From Candidatus Omnitrophota bacterium (GTDB lineage: Bacteria > Hinthialibacterota > Hinthialibacteria > Hinthialibacterales > JAKPRU01), in assembly GCA_029570205.1 (NCBI GenBank), contig JAKQSI010000032.1:1-52584 (forward strand): a stretch of DNA of 52,584 nt, given 5' to 3'. Both the position numbers and the translations under genes were made by a program. Shown here in pieces: positions 1,529 to 48,381 of the stretch (the first letter of the stretch is position 1; each line of letters opens with the position of its first letter). The notes under the pieces are model-generated. The model was given only the letters and a program-made list of their open reading frames with translations. It did not search any database and was not told the DNA's origin.

Positions 1529-2685
1529 ATCCGCAAACCCTGTTGGTAATCATTCCCGATCGCCTGAGTGAACTCGTCTCCAAAGGCGAAATAACGCCAC
1601 GGTACTACAATCCCGGAAACCTGTTTCAGAATGTGCATATTCTGATGGTAAACGACGACCGGGTGAATCCGGCGGATTTGCAGGAGACAGCAGGCGATGC
1701 GAATCTGACAATTCACAATTACCCGGCCGATCTGCATCTTTTCTACCGCAGCCTTGGATGGAGACCGTTCTTCTTAAGGGGTTGGGCAGAACCTGCCGTC
1801 CGGTTAGCCGAAGAAATCCGACCCGCATTGATTCGATGCCACGGCAATAAGCTGAACGGCTACCTGGCGAGTCGGATCAAGAAGGCGCTTGGTATTCCGT
1901 ACGTAGTCTCGATACACATCAACCCCGATGAAGATATCAAGGGACGAGCGACTACCCGTCAACAGAGATTCTACCTCCGTGCCATGGAGGCCGTCGGGAG
2001 AGTGACCCTTCGGAACGCAGACCTGGTCATGCCGGTCTACCAGCCGATTGTTCCGTACCTGAAGCGAATGGGCGCGGAACGCTTTGAAGTAGTCTATAAC
2101 ATATTGAACGAGAACCACCTCCAAAAGAAAGATGACTACCGCCTTCATCATCCGGTTCGGATTGTCTCGGTCGGACGACAGATCAGGGAGAAGAATCCCG
2201 ACAATATCATCCGTGCCGTTCAAGCGCTGCCCGATACGCATTTGACCCTGGTCGGGCATGGTTCCTATCATGAGTACCTTCGGAACCTGGTACAGGAACT
2301 CGGATTGCAGGACCGCGTCGATTTCCGCCCGGCGGTCCCGAACAGCGAATTGTGCAGCCTATTGCCCGAATTTGATATTTTTGCCGTTCACACGGAGTAC
2401 TGGGAGATCAGCAAATCCGTTCTCGAGGCCTTACTGACCGGGCTGCCGGTCGTTATCAATCGCCGAGTCGGAGAACCGGTTCCGGAACTGGAAGGCGATT
2501 TTGTCCTGAAGGTCAACAATACTGTGGAAGAATACACCGCTGCACTGAAACGCTTAATTGAAGATGATATATATCGCGAACAACTTGGCCGCCGCGCCTA
2601 TGAACATGCCCAGGAACACTGGTCCCCAAAGAAAATGGAGGCGCGTGTCGTGGAAATCTACCGGAAGTTGATGAAACCGGCATGA
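1525..2685 (+). CDS. Glycosyltransferase, GT-B fold (family 4-like)
   Basis: 386 residues. The C-terminal half has the nucleotide-sugar-binding half of GT-B enzymes: VSVGRQIREKNPDNIIRA (about 215-232), LVGHGSYHEYL, and the acceptor/donor segment FAVHTEYWEISKSVLEAL (about 292-310), whose two glutamates occupy the E-x7-E position. The N-terminal half is a probable acceptor domain. It probably acts at the cytoplasmic face of the inner membrane to extend a surface glycan or lipid-linked glycan; donor and acceptor are not predictable. Its ATG overlaps the previous stop (ATGA at 1525-1528) and its own stop overlaps the epimerase start, indicating translational coupling. Confidence 0.9.
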   Translation: MNPQTLLVIIPDRLSELVSKGEITPRYYNPGNLFQNVHILMVNDDRVNPADLQETAGDANLTIHNYPADLHLFYRSLGWRPFFLRGWAEPAVRLAEEIRPALIRCHGNKLNGYLASRIKKALGIPYVVSIHINPDEDIKGRATTRQQRFYLRAMEAVGRVTLRNADLVMPVYQPIVPYLKRMGAERFEVVYNILNENHLQKKDDYRLHHPVRIVSVGRQIREKNPDNIIRAVQALPDTHLTLVGHGSYHEYLRNLVQELGLQDRVDFRPAVPNSELCSLLPEFDIFAVHTEYWEISKSVLEALLTGLPVVINRRVGEPVPELEGDFVLKVNNTVEEYTAALKRLIEDDIYREQLGRRAYEHAQEHWSPKKMEARVVEIYRKLMKPA

Positions 2686-3803
2686 TCCTGTCTCCTCCCG
2701 TTCTTATTCATCTTGTCGCGGGTGCGCGCCCGAACTTTATGAAGATCGCGCCGCTGTATAAGGCGTTGTGCGCGGAGCCGGAATATTTCCGCCCGCAGAT
2801 CGTCCACACCGGCCAGCATTACGATGCGAATATGTCGGAGACTTTCTTTCGGGAGTTTCAACTACCGGAACCTGATCTGTACCTGGGAGTCGGTTCCGGA
2901 AGCCATGGGCAACAAACCGCAAAAGTTATGACGGCGTACGAAGAAATCTGTCTGCGACAGCCTCCACAGCTGACAGTTGTAGTCGGCGATGTCAACTCCA
3001 CGATGGCGTGCGCGATTACCGCGAAGAAGCTGAATTTGCCCGTGGCCCACCTCGAAGCCGGACTGCGCAGCCGTGACCGCACAATGCCCGAGGAAATCAA
3101 TCGTGTAATTACCGATACCATCGCCGATATTCTGTGGACCCCTTCACCCGATGCGGACGACAATCTGAAACGCGAAGGAGTTTCGGAGAACCGCATCCGA
3201 CGGGTCGGGAATATCATGATCGACACGTTGCGGATGAATGAAACCGCTGTTCAATCCCGAAAGAAGTACCTGGAATTCGGACTGAAGCCGAAGCGTTATG
3301 GAGTAATGACTCTCCATCGTCCTTCCAATGTGGATCGGAGAGAACCGCTGGAAACTATTGTTCACGCTGTACGGACCTGCTCCGAACAACTGCCGATTGT
3401 CTTCTTGATTCATCCAAGAACGAAACATCGGCTGGAAGAATTCGGCCTCTGGCAGGATTTGGAAAGATGCCCCAATGTTCATCGGGCGGAGCCGCAGGGA
3501 TATGCGGATTTCCTGAGCCTGGTGTTAAACTCCGCCTTTGTAGTTACAGATTCCGGTGGCATACAGGAAGAGACAACTGTCCTCAACATCCCATGTCTTA
3601 CGCTACGGGAGAACACGGAGCGGCCGATCACCATTCTGCAAGGCACAAACGAGCTGGTGCGTGCGGACACGCTTTTGAACTGTCTTTCCGGAATTCTTAG
3701 CGGCAAATGGAAACAGGGGACTGTGCCGGATCTGTGGGATGGAAACACATCCGCGCGGATTGTACGGCATCTCAAAGAGATTATTGCGGCGTCTGTCTCA
3801 TGA
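2682..3803 (+). CDS. wecB: UDP-N-acetylglucosamine 2-epimerase (non-hydrolysing)
   Basis: 373 residues, normal length for the WecB/MnaA family, which interconverts UDP-GlcNAc and UDP-ManNAc in the cytoplasm. Visible landmarks are GARPNFMK (14-21), HTGQHYD (about 47), GDVNST, HLEAGLRS, PEEINR (carrying the catalytic Asp/Glu/Glu equivalents), LHRPSNVD (catalytic His position) and the UDP-binding DSGGIQEE. The LHRPSNVD wording places it in the subgroup that differs from enterobacterial WecB, so a WbpI-like substrate (a diacetamido-uronate) is possible. Start and stop both overlap neighbours by 4 bases (ATGA). A UDP-sugar dehydrogenase that could use its product lies at 39891. Confidence 0.92.
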   Translation: MILSPPVLIHLVAGARPNFMKIAPLYKALCAEPEYFRPQIVHTGQHYDANMSETFFREFQLPEPDLYLGVGSGSHGQQTAKVMTAYEEICLRQPPQLTVVVGDVNSTMACAITAKKLNLPVAHLEAGLRSRDRTMPEEINRVITDTIADILWTPSPDADDNLKREGVSENRIRRVGNIMIDTLRMNETAVQSRKKYLEFGLKPKRYGVMTLHRPSNVDRREPLETIVHAVRTCSEQLPIVFLIHPRTKHRLEEFGLWQDLERCPNVHRAEPQGYADFLSLVLNSAFVVTDSGGIQEETTVLNIPCLTLRENTERPITILQGTNELVRADTLLNCLSGILSGKWKQGTVPDLWDGNTSARIVRHLKEIIAASVS

Positions 3804-4702
3804 ACTTGCAGATTCTAAAGAACGCTATTCGGTCTCCGCGTCAAACCGCGCTGCAAGTCATTGCGCGGAGACAACCGACGTGGCTATTTCGAAACTACGT
3901 TTGCCTGGCGCGAAAACAGGGACTTACTCGACCGACACTGATACTATCTTTTGACTGTGACAGAGACCGCGATGCCGAGGCCGCTCTCGATGTAACCGGG
4001 CAGTTAATGGAGATCGGTATTTGTCCTGTGTTTGCAGTTCCGGGGACTAATCTTGAGCAGAACGGAGATATTTATCGGGAAATCGCATTGAGGGGTTGTG
4101 AGTTTATCAACCACGGGTATCTCCCTCATGCATACTGGGACGACGAGAATGCCCGATTTGAAAGTTGCACCTTTTATCATGAAATGCGTCCGGAGGACAT
4201 CGCGGAGGATATCCGTAAGGGGCATGAAACGCTGGTAAAGATATTGGGCAAGGCTCCAGACGGATTTCGAGGTCCCCATTTTGGCACGTTTCAAAAGAAA
4301 TCCCAACTGCGATTTCTTCATAGAACTTTGCGCGACCTGGGTTACCGCTATTCCTCCTCGACAACCCCATGGTATGGATTTCTTCATGGCCCGCTGTATC
4401 GCACACAGTCGGGGATTGTGGAAATCCCCGTATCGGGATGTTTCGATGCGCCGTTGAATATTCTCGACTCCTGGTCCTTCTTCTCCGGAAGAAAGGAGCG
4501 ACTCACCCCGCAAGACTACCGTGATCAACTGGTAAAAATGGTAGACTATTTTGCCGCCGGCGATTCTCCGGCATTGCTGAATTTTTATGCCGATCCATCG
4601 CATGTCGCGGGACGGAGTGAGTTCTTCGACGCGATGTGTTATGCTTCGGAACGGATTCACATTTGGCGGAGTTTCCAGGAGATGCTGGATTCGAATGGCT
4701 GA
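3800..4702 (+). CDS. Polysaccharide deacetylase (NodB-like) family protein
   Basis: 300 residues. It has the elements of a carbohydrate-esterase-4 fold: SFDCD (about 50-54, metal/catalytic Asp region), FINHGYLPH (two histidines, about 105 and 110) and FRGPHFG (about 157-163). The first motif is SFDCD rather than the usual TFDD, so it is a divergent member. Such enzymes remove N- or O-acetyl groups from glycans. It lacks a signal peptide, which suggests a cytoplasmic or membrane-face precursor substrate. Start chosen at 3800, where ATGA overlaps the epimerase stop, although the frame is open further upstream. Confidence 0.82.
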   Translation: MNLQILKNAIRSPRQTALQVIARRQPTWLFRNYVCLARKQGLTRPTLILSFDCDRDRDAEAALDVTGQLMEIGICPVFAVPGTNLEQNGDIYREIALRGCEFINHGYLPHAYWDDENARFESCTFYHEMRPEDIAEDIRKGHETLVKILGKAPDGFRGPHFGTFQKKSQLRFLHRTLRDLGYRYSSSTTPWYGFLHGPLYRTQSGIVEIPVSGCFDAPLNILDSWSFFSGRKERLTPQDYRDQLVKMVDYFAAGDSPALLNFYADPSHVAGRSEFFDAMCYASERIHIWRSFQEMLDSNG

Positions 4703-7160: not shown

Positions 7161-8027
7161 TTACCGCCCGTCCGTGCAGGATTGAGATTTCTGTTCGTTT
7201 AAGTCCGGATGCAGGCGCTTGCAAATCATATCGACCGATTTCACAAAGGAAGAGAAACAGGGAAGTGTTACCTGGGGGGACTTAATCAGAATGAACTCGC
7301 ATCGGCTAAGCGGGGGAAACTGGGAATAGACGGGTTTGCGCTCCTCCAATGAGGCTACTTCTGAGAGAATGAGAATCACCTCCGGTTTGCGGGCAATTAC
7401 GGATTCCATGGATACAATGGGATAGGCAACAGGGGAATCCGCGAAAATATTTTCCCCGCCTGCCCTTTCGACAATGGCATGAGCGAATCCCCTGGAGGAC
7501 ACCGTCATCAACGGCCTGTGCCAGATCTCGATAAACACGCGCCTTTTCGGATGATTTTCAAGACGCTTGGCAACGGTTTGGAGTTGTTCCTGCCATTCCC
7601 GGAGTTTTTGTTCGGCGCGCGGTTGAACATGGAGACGGTCGCCCAGTGTCAGGAACGCTTTCTCCAAATCCTTTTCGGTTCGAGAAGGTCCCAGAGCGAG
7701 AATCGGGATTCCCAATTTTTTGATTCGATCTATCGTCGTGGGTTTGTTGGACTCCACATCCGCGATGACCAATGTGGGCTGAAGGCGCGCAATACGCTCC
7801 AGGTTGGGAGCCATCTGAGAACCGATGATTTCCGCATTGGCGGCATCCGCCGGCCGCTTGCAGAACTCGGTCATGCCGACCAGAGATGAGCCGAGTTCCA
7901 GGTCTGCGATCATTTGTGTCCCGGATGGAACCAGGGAGACAATGCGGTGTGCCGGACTGTCCGGCTCGCAGAAGAGCATGTCCGCTACTGGGAGAAGAAA
8001 AAGAAAGAACCATATAGTTCTATGCAT
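7161..8027 (-). CDS. btuF: Periplasmic cobalamin-binding protein (BtuF-like)
   Basis: 288 residues: Sec signal peptide MHRTIWFFLFLLPVADMLFC, then the class III solute-binding fold with one helical backbone. IVSLVPSGTQMIADLELGSSLVGMTEFC is the classic BtuF/cobalamin-binding opening (SL-P--T-----LG---VG-T--C). IWHRPLMTVSSRGF and the AGGENIF segment follow, the latter typical of B12/haem/siderophore binders. Start chosen at 8027, where TGATG overlaps the stop of the propeller gene by one base; an in-frame ATG at 8042 is also possible. It is the third gene behind a cobalamin riboswitch, which supports B12 as ligand. No btuC or btuD follows, so the permease must be elsewhere. Confidence 0.85.
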   Translation of the reverse strand: MHRTIWFFLFLLPVADMLFCEPDSPAHRIVSLVPSGTQMIADLELGSSLVGMTEFCKRPADAANAEIIGSQMAPNLERIARLQPTLVIADVESNKPTTIDRIKKLGIPILALGPSRTEKDLEKAFLTLGDRLHVQPRAEQKLREWQEQLQTVAKRLENHPKRRVFIEIWHRPLMTVSSRGFAHAIVERAGGENIFADSPVAYPIVSMESVIARKPEVILILSEVASLEERKPVYSQFPPLSRCEFILIKSPQVTLPCFSSFVKSVDMICKRLHPDLNEQKSQSCTDGR

Positions 8028-9436
8028 CAATGTATCCACCACAAGTCCACGCCGACATTGGAAGGTACTCCCTCACGATACACGATAGACCTTTCCCCCT
8101 CGACGCTCCAATCCAGCCAAAGAACAAACATCCCATTTGTCTGCGGATTTACCGCGATTGCCGGAGTCCGAGCATCCGACTCCACGCGGCTGAGCGGTAC
8201 CTGGGATTCTATCGATAGATCGCCCGGACGGAGAACTGTGTACATCACCCGGTATGCTCCGCCGATGTCCTCCTGCCAGACAATATGCGCCCGGCCGGTT
8301 GAATCGAAGGCAAGATTCGGCTGTGTAGCATCTGCACGGCCTTGACTGACGCGAACCGGGCCGGACCAATTCCCGTCGAATGGTCGATATTGGAAATAAA
8401 TCTGTTTCTGTGTGTCCGCTCGTTTTGAATAGACCAGGCCCAGATTCCCCTGTCGGTCTGCAGCCAGACGGTGCGGATCGAGGAACGAGCCTCCATCTTC
8501 CGCCACCTGCTCCGAAGGCCCCGCTATTCCATCCGCTGAGACCGTGCATCCCCGCAACTCGAAACTCCCCTGCCATCCTTCGACAAATCCCCAGAGAAGG
8601 TAGACATCACCGCTCGGAAGACCGGCCGGAGAGGGCATCCAGTTTGCGGTGTAGGTCGAACCGGACTCAATGGAGGTGATTCGAAACGGTTCAATCCCGA
8701 CTTGCGGGGGAAATTCGCCGGAAAGGGCGCTGGAACGGAGATAGACATCCGCCGCGTTGCCGTCCAGGGTAAAATCATACCAGGCGATATGGACCCGACC
8801 GTCCGGCCCGACTGCCAACTGGGGGGTATACCCGTTGTCAGCCAGGTTCCCCGCTCGCGTATCGGTAATCCGAATATCCGAAACGGAGAATGCGCCATTC
8901 GCCGGTTTACAGTCATAATAGATCTCCGTGTTATCCATCCAATGCCCGGCAAGTGTGGTGTGTCGGTAATCGTGCCAGACCACATGCACAGTGTCCTCGG
9001 AATCTACGGCCAGGCAGGGATGCCTGCCGCCGCCGATGTCAGCATTGTCCACACGGACCGGGGGAGAGACGTCCCCGCCGGGATCGACCATGCAATACCA
9101 GACTTGGTTCTGAGGTGGAGACCCGGTTTGATCGCGAACCCCGTACACCAGGTGAAGCCGCCCCATGGAATCGACTGCTGCGGTTCCATGCGTGTTGACC
9201 GGGAATTCAATCGAAGCCTCATCGCGCAGGATTGTGATTTCCTGGCCGAAATCGACAGCCCAAGCGGGGGAAACAAGCAGGGGAATGAGGACGACTAGCC
9301 AATTGCGGATTGCGGATTGGGGATTGCGGATTGGGGATTGCGGATTACGACCATCCGCCGCAGGGGCGGGTCTGTGACCCGCCCTTGCGTGATCTGCGTC
9401 AAGAGCCACCAACAGGTTGATCGATAGAAAATTCAT
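8027..9436 (-). CDS. Secreted beta-propeller protein in the B12 riboswitch operon
   Basis: 469 residues. Six repeats of the pattern [LAI]A-[VFAD]-D-x2-G-x-[VLA]-H-[VIL]-[VA]-[WY] are visible near residues 86, 142, 207, 324, 375 and 426, as in six-bladed Asp-box/BNR-type propellers. The hydrophobic signal core is WLVVLIPLLVSPAWA (46-60), oddly far from the start: residues 13-45 are translated from a dispersed repeat (see findings). The start at 9436 has AAGGGG upstream. The C-terminus VDLWWIH resembles a tail shared with other secreted proteins here. Function is unknown; its place between a transcobalamin-like protein and BtuF suggests a surface role linked to cobalamin capture. Confidence 0.85.
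   Translation of the reverse strand: MNFLSINLLVALDADHARAGHRPAPAADGRNPQSPIRNPQSAIRNWLVVLIPLLVSPAWAVDFGQEITILRDEASIEFPVNTHGTAAVDSMGRLHLVYGVRDQTGSPPQNQVWYCMVDPGGDVSPPVRVDNADIGGGRHPCLAVDSEDTVHVVWHDYRHTTLAGHWMDNTEIYYDCKPANGAFSVSDIRITDTRAGNLADNGYTPQLAVGPDGRVHIAWYDFTLDGNAADVYLRSSALSGEFPPQVGIEPFRITSIESGSTYTANWMPSPAGLPSGDVYLLWGFVEGWQGSFELRGCTVSADGIAGPSEQVAEDGGSFLDPHRLAADRQGNLGLVYSKRADTQKQIYFQYRPFDGNWSGPVRVSQGRADATQPNLAFDSTGRAHIVWQEDIGGAYRVMYTVLRPGDLSIESQVPLSRVESDARTPAIAVNPQTNGMFVLWLDWSVEGERSIVYREGVPSNVGVDLWWIH
9301..9386. repeat. Dispersed repeat inside the signal-peptide coding region
   Basis: Three or four iterations of GCGGATTGGGGATT at 9306-9350, followed by the hairpin GGGCGGGT-ctgtg-ACCCGCCC (about 9365-9385). 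Both parts are low-complexity/palindromic and look like the intergenic repeats elsewhere in the window, yet here they are translated as an N-P-Q-S-A-I-R-N-type repeat within residues 18-45 of the propeller protein. Confidence 0.8.
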
Positions 9437-9448
9437 CTTCGGTCCCCT

Positions 9449-10300
9449 TTACCGGATGTATGCGTTGAAGAATGAGACGTCCGATGTCGGCTGAAAGATT
9501 TCCGCGCGGGAAATCGGGGGCTGAGTCACACCATAAATGCCAAAGAAGTATCCGTGAACGTCCTGGTCACGTGCGATAGAATCCGGACCGATATATATGG
9601 ACCATTCAAAGAAGTCTTCCGAATTGAGGATACTGAACTGCCAGAACGGCTCATCCCAATCGCCGAAACAAGTTTCAGCGGGATACCCTTCGCCGTCAAT
9701 GGCGCAAAAGGCAATTCCCCACCCGAAATCCCGCCAGACTACATCCACACCAGTGCGGAATAGCAGCTGTATTCCGGTTATGGTTTCACCATGAAATGGA
9801 ACGACCCGGACAACCCGTTGCCCATCGCTGTGGTCGATTACCACGGCGGCTTGGCTGACAACCTCGCACACATCGGCAAAGGTTCGGTCGGGCGGGAGAG
9901 TTCCTGAGGATGGTGGTCCATAGACAAATCCGAAGACATCCCCATGAACGGCGATCACCGCAGAAATCGGCGTGTCCAGGAGTTCCCAGCCGTCGTCGAT
10001 CCGGCGGTACAGGTTCCAGGTCGGCCCGTCCGGATCGCCGGGGCACAGGGTTGGATTCGTTTGTCCATCATTGTGCAGGTAACAGATAAAAGTACCTTGC
10101 TCGGTTTCCGACAAGACTTTGGGAAATCCCGACCGTTGCAGGATTTCCGTCAAAGGCAGGCTTTCTTCCTCGAATTCGACACAGCGCGTGATTATTTCGC
10201 CGGTTGAGTTCCGGATTACGAGTCCGGCCATGTTGATTGCCCAGGCCGGTCCGACAATGATTGTGAAGAACAGGAATAGAAATGAGGTACACCGCTTCAT
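9449..10300 (-). CDS. Secreted protein with two tandem transcobalamin-like (DUF4430-like) domains
   Basis: 283 residues with a Sec signal peptide (1-21, cut after AWA). The rest is an internal duplication. Repeat 1 (about 24-129) has LPLTEILQRSG, C73-YLHNDG-x5-C86-PGDPDGPTW and HGDVFGFVYG. Repeat 2 (about 153-259) has GIQLLFRTG, C199-AIDG-x7-C211-FGDWDEPFW and DVHGYFFGIYG. The order of an early L-x2-L-x3-G segment, a central W and a final GD-x3-[FW]-x-Y strand is the pattern I associate with the transcobalamin beta-domain family. This is pattern-level similarity and has not been tested by a profile search. Start at 10300 is set by GAGGAG upstream. First gene after the cobalamin riboswitch, which supports a role in extracytoplasmic B12 binding. 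Confidence 0.8.
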   Translation of the reverse strand: MKRCTSFLFLFFTIIVGPAWAINMAGLVIRNSTGEIITRCVEFEEESLPLTEILQRSGFPKVLSETEQGTFICYLHNDGQTNPTLCPGDPDGPTWNLYRRIDDGWELLDTPISAVIAVHGDVFGFVYGPPSSGTLPPDRTFADVCEVVSQAAVVIDHSDGQRVVRVVPFHGETITGIQLLFRTGVDVVWRDFGWGIAFCAIDGEGYPAETCFGDWDEPFWQFSILNSEDFFEWSIYIGPDSIARDQDVHGYFFGIYGVTQPPISRAEIFQPTSDVSFFNAYIR

Positions 10301-10378
10301 CTTTCCGAAACGCTCCTCTCGGTAAGTTTGTGGGGAACGTGGAGGGACAGACCGGCGAGATTGGTTTGCAAGGGCAAC

Positions 10379-10408
10379 AAAAAACCCCGGTGACCTCTGT
10401 AGCCGGGG
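10379..10408 (-). terminator. Intrinsic terminator acting as riboswitch expression platform
   Basis: On the minus strand CCCCGG (10408-10403), a 12-base loop, CCGGGG (10390-10385) and then a run of six T (10384-10379). It lies between the aptamer and the first gene, about 80 bases before the start codon. The loop contains AGAGGT, complementary to ACCTCT just after the aptamer, a possible anti-terminator pairing (inference). Confidence 0.8.
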
Positions 10409-10449
10409 CATCCGATGGGTACTTTTCCATCCGGTATGCCACACTCTCA

Positions 10450-10640
10450 GTCCCCGAAGAGGTGACATCGTTCCGAGGGGCAGGTTTCCTGGCTTCCGGG
10501 CCTGGACCTAATTCCTCGCCTTCTCATCCGAATCGGACAATGGCGCGTGAGGTTTCGTTCCCGGTTACAGTGGCGGGACCGCACCGGCTTCTCACCGGCT
10601 TCCCTTTTATTTGCCTCGCGGCAAACACCACTCGAAATAT
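10450..10640 (-). promoter_or_regulatory. Cobalamin (B12) riboswitch aptamer
   Basis: Read on the minus strand: P2-type hairpin TTTGCC-gcga-GGCAAA, then AAAAGGGAAGCCGGTG, the core GGTCCCGCCACTGTAACCGG, and near the 3' end the B12 box AAGCCAGGAAACCTGCC. These blocks are the conserved parts of cobalamin riboswitches, in the right order and spacing. A terminator follows, so binding of adenosyl- or another cobalamin should switch off the downstream operon 10300-7161. Confidence 0.95.
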
Positions 10641-10651
10641 GTCGAAGTGGG

Positions 10652-10679
10652 ATAGTACCGCACACATGGTGGAAAGCAA
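10652..10679 (-). promoter_or_regulatory. Candidate promoter of the B12 riboswitch operon
   Basis: Minus-strand TTGCTT (10679-10674), 16-base spacer, TACTAT (10657-10652). Transcription would begin about 10645, just before the leader hairpin of the aptamer. Confidence 0.45.
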
Positions 10680-13474: not shown

Positions 13475-14944
13475 ATGAGACACCTCGGAATTCTCGTTTT
13501 GTCGGTGGTATTACTCACCGGATTGGCGACTCAATCCTTCGCACAGGTAATGGAAACCCCGGAAGAAGCCGGCATTACCCCCATCACAGGCGATATTCCG
13601 CTGCTCCGTGGCTATGGCGGTTCACACCATTTCGCGGCAGCCTGGCTCGCCATGCTTGGCGATGGAACTCCCCTCGTAGTCATGCCGAACCCAACCCTGG
13701 AAGAACAGCTGCAACACGTCGCAATCCTGAATGTGTTGGACCGTAAGGGCAACGTGGTCGCAGAACGCGCCGGATTCCAGGACGACAACGGCGTTCCCAT
13801 TATGGCCTACTTGGGCGGGGATCCGCGTGGTGTAGCCATTGACGCTCGCGGGAATCAATATGCCGTCGTCATGACAGCACAACCTTACCCCCCTGTCTAC
13901 ACAGGGGGCGGTGTGATCTCCGCTTTTGCCGGCGTAGGCACCGGCGGTGGCGACTCCGGCGTTCCCATCATCCAGGTCTTCAATGCCGATGGAACCAAGT
14001 CCTCCAATATCGTCAACATTATGGGAAAAGGTACTCTTTTTTCCGACAGCGGACAGGTTCAGGGACGTGCCTGCGTCTTCTTGAGCAATGGCAATGTCGC
14101 ATTGAACTTCTGGGATAAGAAAACTCCCACCGGCGGTGTGACCGGTGATCGTTGGCCGGGATATGAGGGAACCGGGCAGGTCGTCGGAGTCTCCGTGATT
14201 TCTCCCAACGGCAGCATTGTGGTTCCCCCGACACCGATCAGCACCCCTGTTGCGGGGGCCAATGCCCAAACCATGCGCGGCGTGGCGGCTGGCGAAGGTT
14301 GGTTCTGCTGCCGATTTCAGGATGCGGACGGGGTTGTGAAATACTCTATCTTCAATAACGCCGGTTCGAGAGTCCGCGATATCATCCCGGCGGACGTGAT
14401 CGACGCCGCGATGGAAGGCGGGTTGGGTACAGCCATCGCCGGTGGACGGGGTGACAGCGAGCTGATCTACGGGCAAGGTGAATTCTTATATGCAATCGGT
14501 AAAGCCAATGGGGCCACTTTTGTGATGAAATTCAACGCCTTGGCCGGAACCCTGGTCAAAATCACGGAGGCCTCGCCTGCTGGAAACCAGGGCGAGCGCA
14601 TGGACATCTGCGCCGATGCCAACGGAAATGTTTTCGCCATGTGGGGCGATGTTTCCGGCGGCGGGCTGGTTGCCCTCGGACGGCTCTTCGATGCCAATCT
14701 CGATCCTGTAACTCCGGAGTTCTCTGTCTTTGAGCATCAGGTCCTTTCCGGCAACACCGACACCTGGAAAGATGTCAGCTGCCGTATGGACACCGGGATT
14801 ATTGTCGCCTCTTGCCACACAACCGGTCTGCCGGACAACGAAGCGACACCCGGTCTCGGCAATCTCCCGCTCGAACACTGCGTGCGAATCCTGGCCAACC
14901 CGCTTGGTCCTTCTGCAGTGCAAGGCAACTGGGAACTGTACTGA
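13475..14944 (+). CDS. Secreted protein of unknown function with WELY C-terminus
   Basis: 489 residues. Sec signal peptide MRHLGILVLSVVLLTGLATQ-SFA-Q, then a beta-rich, glycine-rich body with repeats such as DPRGVAIDARGNQYAVV and MDICADANGNVFAMWGD, which suggest a propeller-like fold. It has few charged residues overall and no recognised catalytic motif. It ends in VQGNWELY at the stop codon, a tail shared in form with three other secreted proteins here. A perfect promoter and a very strong terminator bracket it, so it is probably a highly expressed single-gene unit. Confidence 0.85.
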   Translation: MRHLGILVLSVVLLTGLATQSFAQVMETPEEAGITPITGDIPLLRGYGGSHHFAAAWLAMLGDGTPLVVMPNPTLEEQLQHVAILNVLDRKGNVVAERAGFQDDNGVPIMAYLGGDPRGVAIDARGNQYAVVMTAQPYPPVYTGGGVISAFAGVGTGGGDSGVPIIQVFNADGTKSSNIVNIMGKGTLFSDSGQVQGRACVFLSNGNVALNFWDKKTPTGGVTGDRWPGYEGTGQVVGVSVISPNGSIVVPPTPISTPVAGANAQTMRGVAAGEGWFCCRFQDADGVVKYSIFNNAGSRVRDIIPADVIDAAMEGGLGTAIAGGRGDSELIYGQGEFLYAIGKANGATFVMKFNALAGTLVKITEASPAGNQGERMDICADANGNVFAMWGDVSGGGLVALGRLFDANLDPVTPEFSVFEHQVLSGNTDTWKDVSCRMDTGIIVASCHTTGLPDNEATPGLGNLPLEHCVRILANPLGPSAVQGNWELY

Positions 14945-15383: not shown

Positions 15384-17168
15384 ATGTTACAAACTTTTGC
15401 CTGGACAATTCTGATGCTTCTCATGGCCGTATCGGTGCAGTCTCAGGTGCTGTTGGACGAAAACTTCGATGCTGCCGCAGGAAATGATTTTGAGGATGTC
15501 ATCGACTTCAGCGGCAATCCGGTTCGGCCCGGTGAGATATTCACCATTGCGCCGACCGGCTGGACGGTTCGAACGGAATTACGCCCGGAGGAGGATACAT
15601 TCAGCGCCGCTTTCCCGTATCCCGGTTGGGTTTCACTTTATGACTATGAATGGGATACCCAGGGCGGCGAACGGGAGAATAGTCCGGAAGGCTTTTCGGG
15701 CGGGTTGATGATTGTTGATTCCGACCTGTTCGGCAGCTTGGGCGCGAAAAGTTGGCTTTACAGCCCGATTCTCAATCTGCCCAGCGGGAAAAATATGGTC
15801 GTCGTCCAATTTGACAACCATTACAGGCACAATGATAACCAAGTGGCCTCCCTTCAGGTATCCTGGGATGGCGGCCATGTGTTCCAGCCCGTGTTTCAAT
15901 GGGATGACAGCAACCGCAACGACAACCAGAGTTATATCGGTCGCGAGATTTTTGCCATACCCGTTCCGACAGGCGCAGAGACAGTGCAATGGGCTTTCGT
16001 TTTTGCGGGCGATAGCGATCAGGATGGGTATTACGATTTCGACTGGTATTGGGCCTTCGACAACGTTCTCATATCGGCCCAGGATATTTCCTCGCCGAAT
16101 ACCCCGACGCTGAAAGTCTCGTTGGTCAATCCGGGTCAATTCGATTCGGGCATTTTTCTGGAAGGCCCTGCTTTTGTGAGCGGCGCGGGCGCCACGCACG
16201 AAAAGACCCATTGGGAATTGGCGCTGGATTCTCTGTTTACGCAGATCATCTATTCTTCTGAAACCACGGAACACTTGACCGAGCTGGCGCTTAACGCAAA
16301 CGTGGCGCCGATCGGCAGAGTCATCTATGCCCGGGTGCGATATATCGACAACAACGGCGCAGCTTCCGAGTTTTCGAGCGCACAAACGTTCAATGTCTCC
16401 CCTCCCGCCGGAATGAGACCTCTCTTTGTGGAGGACTTCGAATCCACGAACGAGGGATCTCTGCCCAGCAACTGGCGACAGATCAGCTTCAACGGCGACA
16501 TGACCGGCGACCCCGTTATGGACATGGCGGCTTCCTGGGTTGTCGTAGAAGCGTCAACCCTGGCAACCTTTGGCAGTGAGCGCGTCAATCGCCCGGTGTT
16601 CGAGGGAAAGAGCGTCTATGCCAACTCCGATGGTTTCTCACCGTTCCAGGAAAGCCATCTCTTTACACCGCCCATCAACCTGAGCGGTGTAACAAATGTC
16701 TGGCTTACATTCTGGAGCAACTATGTTCAAAACCAGGACAACATCGGGGTATTGGAATACTCCATCAACGGCGGAAACCTCGATGAAAACCACATTGTCA
16801 CCGGAACTTGGCTGCCCATCGCGTACATGATGGATCACTTCGATATCGTGTTTGACACCGGCGGGAATCCTCTGGCCGAGCAGACTTTCACGGACACGAA
16901 TCTGGCGGATGGAACCGGCCACCCATACGCTTACTTTGTTTTCGCGCAGCCGTTCTCATCTCTGGATGCCTATCTCTCCCCGCGCATTGATGACGACAAG
17001 ACGGAGGGCAAGCGGTATGAACGCTGTCGCCTGAGCGCAGCGGACAACCAATCCAATGTGGTCATTCGCTGGATGAATATGGGAACCAACAGCTGGTTCT
17101 GGGGCGTGGATAATGTCATCATCTGGGGCGATGATGGAACCTCGGTCGCCGACTGGTCGCTTTACTGA
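15384..17168 (+). CDS. Large secreted protein with two jelly-roll (MAM/LamG-like) domains
   Basis: 594 residues. Signal peptide MLQTFAWTILMLLMAVSVQS-Q. Domain 1 (about 22-225) starts LLDENFD and ends YWAFDNVLISAQ. A fibronectin-III-like linker follows (about 235-335, TPTLKVSLVNPG ... YARVRYIDNNGAASEFS). Domain 2 (about 347-580) starts LFVEDFES and ends FWGVDNVIIWG. The opening -x-E-[DN]-F- and closing DN-[VI] strand are hallmarks of MAM/concanavalin-like beta-sandwiches that bind carbohydrate or mediate adhesion. It ends VADWSLY directly before the stop. No catalytic residues are evident; probably surface-attached or released. Confidence 0.85.
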   Translation: MLQTFAWTILMLLMAVSVQSQVLLDENFDAAAGNDFEDVIDFSGNPVRPGEIFTIAPTGWTVRTELRPEEDTFSAAFPYPGWVSLYDYEWDTQGGERENSPEGFSGGLMIVDSDLFGSLGAKSWLYSPILNLPSGKNMVVVQFDNHYRHNDNQVASLQVSWDGGHVFQPVFQWDDSNRNDNQSYIGREIFAIPVPTGAETVQWAFVFAGDSDQDGYYDFDWYWAFDNVLISAQDISSPNTPTLKVSLVNPGQFDSGIFLEGPAFVSGAGATHEKTHWELALDSLFTQIIYSSETTEHLTELALNANVAPIGRVIYARVRYIDNNGAASEFSSAQTFNVSPPAGMRPLFVEDFESTNEGSLPSNWRQISFNGDMTGDPVMDMAASWVVVEASTLATFGSERVNRPVFEGKSVYANSDGFSPFQESHLFTPPINLSGVTNVWLTFWSNYVQNQDNIGVLEYSINGGNLDENHIVTGTWLPIAYMMDHFDIVFDTGGNPLAEQTFTDTNLADGTGHPYAYFVFAQPFSSLDAYLSPRIDDDKTEGKRYERCRLSAADNQSNVVIRWMNMGTNSWFWGVDNVIIWGDDGTSVADWSLY

Positions 17169-46923: not shown

Positions 46924-48381
46924 TCAATAGATGGACCATTCGATAACGGGGGTCTGCGGCGATCCCTGGAAACCGATAGGGGTTCCGCCCTCCCCGGCAG
47001 TCCTGACCGGGGAATCCTCCGCCAATTTAAACCCATCCCGCGTGAATGTTTCAACATCCACACTCGGATTCACGAATTTCGGGTCTACCTGTTGATTGTT
47101 TTCACTGATTACATTTGTAAACGGTTCCGAATCGACAAAAACATTGCAGTATCTTGCAGTCAAGGCATTGGCATCAAAATTGGCCGGATCGTTGATACTG
47201 CCGTTGTACAGTCCGCGGCGGCCGACGACATTCGAATTGGTTATGGTCAAGACCATCGGTTCGCCGGTGCCGACATCAACCCGGACCTCATAAGGGGAGG
47301 CAGCTGTCAGAGCATTGTGGTAGAATTCGCAGTGATCGACGGTGACGATTGTCTCAATTCCGCTGTCGTGAAGCCACAATCCTTCTTCTTGGTTGCCGGC
47401 TACAATACATCCCGTCAGACTGACTTGCCCATTTTCAATCTCCATGCCTTGTTCCTTGCCGCCGACAAAGGATGAGTTCTCGATAATCCCGATAACGGGG
47501 CGTGTACCGAGCGTTCCATCCACAGACACGTGGAGACCGTCAGCCGTGGATGCCAGCACTGTGCAATTCCGAACGACATTGTAACCGCCACCCAGTTGAA
47601 TACCGCCGTCACAGTTGATGATCGTATTGTTCTCGATCAGGTTGCCGGGTCCCTGGGCGGCCATCGGACCGATACTCTCCGGGTAGGCTCCGTTAACGAC
47701 TTGAATGCCGGTCTCCTCGCAATTCCGAACAGTGCAACCGCGAATGGTAACCGAGGGATCCGTGGGAGCATTTGGTTGGGCTTTGGAAATGAGGGGACCA
47801 AAATTTGTTTCTTCAATCAGGCAGTCCTCAATAAGAACATTCACGGGCGCAGTCTGCATCCCGATCACTAAGATGCTTTGGTTTTGTGCCGGATAGTCGA
47901 TCCCCATGCCGCCGGCCCCACGGACTGTGCAGTTACGGACAGTGATGTTGCTGCAATCGATCAAGGCGACAATGGAACTGGCTCCCGCCATGTTTACGGA
48001 AGTTGTTTGGTTCTCGAAAGTGATTCCTTCAATGAGGACCCCCTGACAGCCGAAAAACACGGCTCCCAGATAGTCCGTCCCCGGAAGTCCCAACGGGTCA
48101 AGTCTCGCCATACCGTTTGCCGCACGAATCGTTGGGGTCTGTCCTTCGGCGGCCCGCAACGTGAACGAGGCGGCAAGGCCCGCCACTGCGCCCGCAGTGA
48201 GATCTTCCTCGTACGTGGCGCTGTCGCCGATGACAATTGTGTCGCCGTTGCGGATGGCTCCCAGCGCCATGGCCACACTGGGCACATCGCCCGTACCGTC
48301 CCTTTTCACCGTAATTGTGGCTGCCGTCGCCGTTGAAACAAACATGGACATGGCAAGAAGAACAACGACACAAGTTCTCAT
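46924..48381 (-). CDS. Secreted right-handed beta-helix protein with WSIY C-terminus
   Basis: 485 residues. Signal peptide MRTCVVVLLAMSMFVSTATA-A, then ITVKRDGTGDVPSVAMALGAIRNGDTIVI, the usual entry of pectate-lyase-like parallel beta-helices. Many rungs follow: LIDCSNITVRNCTVRGAGGMGI, VTIRGCTVRNCEETGIQVV, NLIENNTIINCDGGIQLGG, VSLTGCIVAGNQEEGLWLHDSG. Cysteine/asparagine ladders fit a stacked helix. No catalytic Asp/Lys cluster can be assigned. The last domain (DPKFVNP ... GFKLAEDSPVRTAG) is the common end of such proteins. It finishes VIEWSIY at the stop. Own promoter and strong terminator. Confidence 0.88.
   Translation of the reverse strand: MRTCVVVLLAMSMFVSTATAATITVKRDGTGDVPSVAMALGAIRNGDTIVIGDSATYEEDLTAGAVAGLAASFTLRAAEGQTPTIRAANGMARLDPLGLPGTDYLGAVFFGCQGVLIEGITFENQTTSVNMAGASSIVALIDCSNITVRNCTVRGAGGMGIDYPAQNQSILVIGMQTAPVNVLIEDCLIEETNFGPLISKAQPNAPTDPSVTIRGCTVRNCEETGIQVVNGAYPESIGPMAAQGPGNLIENNTIINCDGGIQLGGGYNVVRNCTVLASTADGLHVSVDGTLGTRPVIGIIENSSFVGGKEQGMEIENGQVSLTGCIVAGNQEEGLWLHDSGIETIVTVDHCEFYHNALTAASPYEVRVDVGTGEPMVLTITNSNVVGRRGLYNGSINDPANFDANALTARYCNVFVDSEPFTNVISENNQQVDPKFVNPSVDVETFTRDGFKLAEDSPVRTAGEGGTPIGFQGSPQTPVIEWSIY

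Follow-up and report, generated by a model that had tools for sequence, protein, structure and literature searches.

How a bacterium with an outer membrane collects vitamin B12 when its genome shows no sign of the usual receptor is the question raised by a three-gene locus of Candidatus Omnitrophota bacterium. Ordinary porins are too narrow for B12, which the diderms studied so far take up through the TonB-dependent receptor BtuB. The stretch of DNA analysed, here called the window, comprises 52,584 nucleotides of contig JAKQSI010000032.1 (assembly GCA_029570205.1). Within it a cobalamin riboswitch is followed by the genes of a secreted, predicted transcobalamin-like protein (P1), a secreted beta-propeller (P2) and a BtuF-like substrate-binding protein (P3). 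The locus is probably one half of a B12-repressed regulon for corrinoid capture and uptake, in which P1, P2 and a dedicated pseudopilin encoded elsewhere in the genome feed the importer BtuFCD.

The window genome (G000) is an assembly of 4.39 Mb that is 93% complete. The phylum sample comprised 14 genomes of Hinthialibacterota/OLB16 with G000 included, three of them from the window's genus, and 372 further genomes were taken from outside the phylum. Five of the six named relatives, SURF_12 among these, were deposited under Omnitrophota. The OLB16/SURF_12 lineage has been described as earlier misclassified as Omnitrophica (PMC10066038), and OLB16 has been equated with Candidatus Hinthialibacterota (PMC11382960).

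The features of the two riboswitch units of G000 are collected in Table 1. As the initial annotation had proposed, a complete riboswitch with a terminator precedes three genes on the same strand, the second and third of which encode a propeller (BNR_4) and a BtuF-like protein (Peripla_BP_2 and TroA_like). The hairpin was not reported by a separate pattern scan, which has a loop limit of 3–8. BtuF was the best named NCBIfam match of P3, at 117.8 bits and below the BtuF equivalog cut-off of 234. The phylum contained 28 riboswitches in total, 27 from the genome scan and one cut by a contig end; 10 lead P1 and 13 lead the pseudopilin family, two of them both, and no labelled gene was found behind those of L063 (G012) and L066 (G013, partial). 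A terminator-like hairpin was placed by script at the matching position of nine of the ten riboswitches preceding P1, whereas the same script found none at most pseudopilin-type riboswitches. Judged from these sequences, the P1 half might be controlled at transcription and the pseudopilin half at translation.

Table 1. Positions of the features in the two riboswitch units of the window genome; window positions unless stated otherwise.
Feature	Position	Strand	Evidence or content
Cobalamin riboswitch aptamer (RF00174), complete	10462–10647	minus	Rfam 113.4 bits against gathering score 31.5; model 1–189 of 189
Terminator-like hairpin and T run, 3' of aptamer	about 10379–10410	minus	script, −14.5 kcal/mol
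P1, secreted, two transcobalamin-like beta-grasp domains, 283 residues	9449–10300	minus	predicted model, residues about 21–131 and 147–256
P2, secreted beta-propeller, about seven repeats	8027–9436	minus	BNR_4 30.4 bits (weak match); phylum relatives
P3, BtuF-like substrate-binding protein	7161–8042	minus	Peripla_BP_2 84.3 against 27.5 bits; NCBIfam TroA_like 102.6 against 30 bits
Second unit, L040 (C120:31000–40000)	riboswitch 1563–1766, genes 1789–4396 (L040 positions)		pseudopilin, btuC, btuD

The P1 sequence carries a Sec-type signal, recognised by eye, and belongs to no Pfam or NCBIfam family. Pfam returned one chance match only, the DUF4430/transcobalamin profile suggested by the initial annotation as a check gave no match, and a P1 profile searched against the PDB sequences yielded two chance matches and no transcobalamin. 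The structure was predicted with AlphaFold2 from seven sequences, giving a model with a mean pLDDT (predicted local distance difference test) of 80.7 and a pTM (predicted template modelling score) of 0.73, in which the element order is repeated twice. By element order, the strands after the helix of the predicted model fit the extra hairpin of the transcobalamin-like SLBB clade. Foldseek matched the model at a probability of 1.00 to 3u7z, the human transcobalamin beta domain, transcobalamin, haptocorrin and intrinsic factor, with generic ubiquitin-like matches interspersed at lower probability. In the VIA-align search the 15 best rows had Z scores of 12.1–12.9 and the next row 5.8; apart from 3u7z these were mammalian cobalamin carriers, and they covered residues 147–256 in most rows and otherwise about 16–131. 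The identity of P1 to the chains matched by VIA-align was just 10–14%, and the closest bacterial structure to domain 1 was 3u7z, which is named 'putative metal binding protein'. The duplicated domain claimed by the initial annotation is thus borne out in the predicted model, which supports P1 as a two-domain protein with the fold of the transcobalamin beta domain and without membership of a curated family. As the fold match came without any sequence-profile match, the likeness of P1 to transcobalamin is one of fold and not of profile. In transcobalamin itself the beta domain helps to enclose B12 (PMC1796856).

Homologues of P1 were found in 10 of the 14 phylum genomes, all ten behind a riboswitch. 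The riboswitch lies within about 215 bases upstream in nine genomes, and in G008 it is cut by the contig end; the P1 gene of G001 is interrupted. The order riboswitch-P1-P2 occurs in seven genomes (G000, G002, G003, G004, G006, G007 and G008). BtuF in third place is limited to G000 and G008. Neither of the two outcomes named by the initial annotation as refuting it, a duplicated domain unlike transcobalamin or no recurrence in relatives, was obtained. The trio itself contains no btuB, btuC or btuD, as first described, but btuC and btuD do exist behind the other riboswitch of G000, together with a pseudopilin, and had been missed. The wider proposal of an alternative B12 scavenging system with a transcobalamin-like fold is supported by both the fold and the recurrence of riboswitch-P1-P2.

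The other of the two cobalamin riboswitches in G000 (C120:32562–32765) leads the pseudopilin, a FecCD permease (btuC) and an ATP-binding cassette ATPase (btuD). The N_methyl motif of this pseudopilin scored 28.6 against 21.2 bits and is conserved in alignment A2, which consists of riboswitch-linked pseudopilins from ten loci; the T2SSG (GspG) match, at 19.3 bits, lies below the cut-off of 21. A search with A2 gave 40–150 pseudopilin-type matches in each of the 14 phylum genomes, a number far beyond the needs of one pilus or secretion system; most of the matches listed fall on the shared N-terminus. Full-length family members with at least 292 bits were present in 13 of the 14 genomes, one in each and two in G006, and the other pseudopilins among the matches listed had at most 85 bits. 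A pseudopilin behind one riboswitch of G010 reached 70 bits and was left out of the family count as an ordinary pseudopilin, as were generic pseudopilins with 59–60 bits in the window and in L048. Comparison of the P1 and pseudopilin profiles gave no relationship.

In all 13 genomes carrying the family, a member stands in a riboswitch unit. The gene is the first of its unit in ten genomes, follows P1-P2 in G004 and G006, and follows P2 in G001, where the order is P2, pseudopilin, btuD, btuF, btuC; in G008 it is split over two contigs. CobT lies downstream of the pseudopilin in G002 and G003, and two CobT-like proteins (DBI_PRT) behind the pseudopilin, at L052 9509–10597 and L056 4098–5009, have very histidine-rich starts. 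The P2 gene adjoins that of the pseudopilin in G001, G004, G005, G006 (two loci) and the out-of-phylum genome G279. No riboswitch match was obtained for the second pair of G006 (L077), where 211 bases of contig remain ahead of the pseudopilin open reading frame (ORF).

Outside the phylum the pseudopilin was sought with profile A6, which covers its C-terminal part only and was searched in 386 genomes in total. Matches of 84–145 bits were obtained in four of the 372 out-of-phylum genomes, and an Rfam scan placed a cobalamin riboswitch (RF00174) at the head of all four units, none of which had a part in building the profile. The pseudopilin is the first gene behind the riboswitch in G173, while in G025 and G312 it is preceded by one secreted protein of 269 residues. 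The G279 unit comprises btuF, btuC, btuD, a secreted protein of 267 residues, a P2-like propeller that scored 150 bits and, at 168 bits, the pseudopilin. These four neighbourhoods, with those of G001, G002 and G003, tie the pseudopilin to corrinoid uptake and salvage independently of the window. The secreted 269-residue protein between riboswitch and pseudopilin, at L094 6902–7711 and L095 8273–9082, has no Pfam match, and genes resembling larB and larC, by eye, come after the pseudopilin in both neighbourhoods.

The cell envelope was examined in the same 14 phylum genomes. All contain Omp85, 4–9 secretin matches and PilT-family ATPases above the curated cut-off, so the cells possess an outer membrane as well as machinery for a pilus or pseudopilus. 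The initial annotation had noted the lack of a TonB receptor at the locus, and to the extent of a Plug-domain search, which gave no match, this holds genome-wide in G000. Plug domains were not found in seven of the 14 genomes, G000 and the other two members of its genus among them, and none of the 20 hits in the remaining genomes has a riboswitch within 20 kb. The B12-controlled secreted proteins, pseudopilin and importer suggest that B12 may be collected without the usual outer-membrane receptor.

The number of propeller repeats in P2 was estimated with a motif script, which found six, roughly evenly spaced, against a mean of 0.9 and a maximum of 4 in shuffled sequences; on the other rows of alignment A3 it found 2 to 8. 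With a seventh repeat recognised by eye, seven blades would result. A search of the P2 profile against the PDB sequences gave nothing credible. The translated signal sequence, inspected by eye, has no cysteine at its end and no lipobox. Relatives with at least 137 bits were present in 12 of the 14 phylum genomes; G010 gave just 26 bits, and none was found in G009, whose contig stops where P1 ends. The P2 ORF contains a repetitive leader at its 5' end, formed by a short direct repeat of GGATTGCGGATT-like units (window about 9300–9350); the true start probably lies downstream of it, inside the ORF.

Two further observations concern the secreted proteins. In two genomes of family f5 the gene that comes first behind the riboswitch encodes, by eye, a different secreted protein, with LSFTSIPSGY or LNFTSVPEGY following the signal (L062 in G011 and L063 in G012); in L062 a P2 relative comes next. 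Short C-terminal tails (NWELY, DWSLY, EWSIY, LWWIH and others) occur on the secreted proteins at 8027–9436, 13475–14944, 15384–17168 and 46924–48381 of the window and are seen again in relatives of P2 and in secreted proteins linked to riboswitches. When the window was taken together with 20 neighbourhoods, tails like W-x-x-[YHFW] closed 14 of the 57 ORFs that had a crude Sec signal and 1 of 129 without one, besides 1 of 16 pilin-like ORFs and none of 11 membrane ORFs. A general secretion tail was dropped as an explanation, fresh stretches of G000 having given 1/66 against 3/215.

The proposed regulon draws directly on riboswitches in cis, the co-localisation of the genes, the modelled fold of P1, the outer membrane with its secretins and PilT, and the lack of a plug domain in G000. 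At low intracellular corrinoid the riboswitches would permit expression of the two gene sets. After export through Sec, P1 and P2 would capture corrinoid on the cell surface or within the periplasm. The dedicated pseudopilin, itself a possible corrinoid binder, would also be controlled by a riboswitch of this kind and would rely on the housekeeping pseudopilus or pilus machinery. Its task would be to connect this layer of capture proteins with the outer membrane: it may help to export P1 and P2, or it may carry corrinoid or loaded binders through a secretin. BtuF would then take the corrinoid for import by BtuCD, steps that are established in the homologues and are assigned here by homology. 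A more specific version, in which the B12-induced pseudopilin is driven by the housekeeping motor and its retraction through a secretin carries corrinoid or loaded binders to BtuFCD, thereby replacing the TonB-dependent receptor, is unlikely. Export of P1 and P2 by a type II-like piston, or display on an anchor, are alternative roles for the pseudopilin.

Several results weigh against the proposed regulon. The C-terminal domain of the pseudopilin matches no family and its model, predicted from two sequences, is poor (pLDDT 41.4). None of the riboswitch units contains a recognised gene for a secretin or an assembly ATPase that would point to a dedicated machine. Seven of the 14 genomes do carry TonB plug proteins, which makes a TonB route possible in those seven, and in the seven genomes where no plug was found the search may have overlooked a large porin or a receptor that has diverged. 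P1 is absent from four of the 14 genomes and is thus not essential to the B12 regulon, and the third place of BtuF is confined to the window's genus.

An explanation that is possible, at somewhat below even chance, makes P1 and P2 mere B12 buffers of the periplasm or surface, like BtuG and BtuH, and the pseudopilin a surface binder whose borrowed pilin N-terminus acts as export signal and anchor, with no pilus mechanics. The excess of pseudopilin-type matches in each genome fits this, as the pilin N-terminus may be a general export tag, and BtuG of Bacteroides is itself a B12-binding propeller (PMC10404256). The Bacteroides systems rely on BtuB, however, and with no plug protein found in half of the phylum genomes the crossing of the outer membrane would be left unexplained.

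The pseudopilin might instead be the piston of a B12-induced type II secretion system that exports P1 and P2 as free scavengers, with corrinoid entering through an unrelated porin or leak, which we consider doubtful. Type II secretion pseudopilins export folded proteins, and the neighbouring P2 and pseudopilin genes listed above accord with such a role. The pseudopilin nevertheless persists without P1 in G011, G012 and G013 and also occurs alone or beside btuCD or cobT, and the released proteins would need a re-uptake route, of which none was seen. That P1 binds a metal or another small molecule, its riboswitch reflecting a wider cobalt or corrinoid economy, is very unlikely despite the name of 3u7z and the low identity to the matched chains, because all ten P1 loci lie behind cobalamin riboswitches and cobalamin carriers head the fold matches.

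With transcobalamin-fold proteins, a propeller and a specific pseudopilin under B12 riboswitches, and no plug domain found in half of the genomes searched, a second entry route for B12 becomes testable. It would also assign a function to one family among the very many uncharacterised pseudopilins of such genomes. B12 uptake with secreted binders is a known kind of system. The pseudopilin component was not found described: judged by search listings of the open-licence literature, no paper connects a pilin or pseudopilin with B12 riboswitches, and those listed seem to mention the terms in passing.

Transcobalamin-like proteins that bacteria secrete, with links to the transport of B12 or cobalt, have been known since 2007 (Burroughs et al., PMC1796856), so the fold is not new in bacteria. 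P1 resembles this SLBB beta-grasp clade in its secretion, its beta-domain fold, its link to B12 acquisition and the second paralogous protein present in operons, and for Clostridium a fusion to a propeller is noted (PMC1796856). The loci described there carry CbiO/CbiQ-type transport genes and come from low-GC Gram-positives, planctomycetes and euryarchaea (PMC1796856); the P1 locus and its regulon differ in the tandem domains, the lack of a sequence-profile match, btuFCD and the pseudopilin. Competence pili and pseudopili for DNA uptake offer an analogy, in that a pilin-type subunit and a beta-grasp binding protein stand beside an inner-membrane importer, and ComEA carries an SLBB domain (PMC1796856). 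The ligand here would be a vitamin, and the riboswitch units contain no assembly genes. With BtuG and BtuH of Bacteroides the system shares a propeller under B12-riboswitch control, seven-bladed in BtuG, a role, proposed here, in corrinoid capture outside the inner membrane and an inner-membrane ABC importer (PMC10404256; see also PMC6143338 and PMC8941943). BtuG, a lipoprotein, sits on the TonB-dependent receptor BtuB (PMC10404256), whereas P2 has no lipobox and G000 no plug domain. BtuBFCD of Escherichia coli is matched by the BtuF, BtuC and BtuD homologues and the control by cobalamin riboswitches (PMC10404256), and the present system departs from it in having no BtuB, in its extra secreted binders and pseudopilin, and in the distribution of the G000 genes over two riboswitch units.

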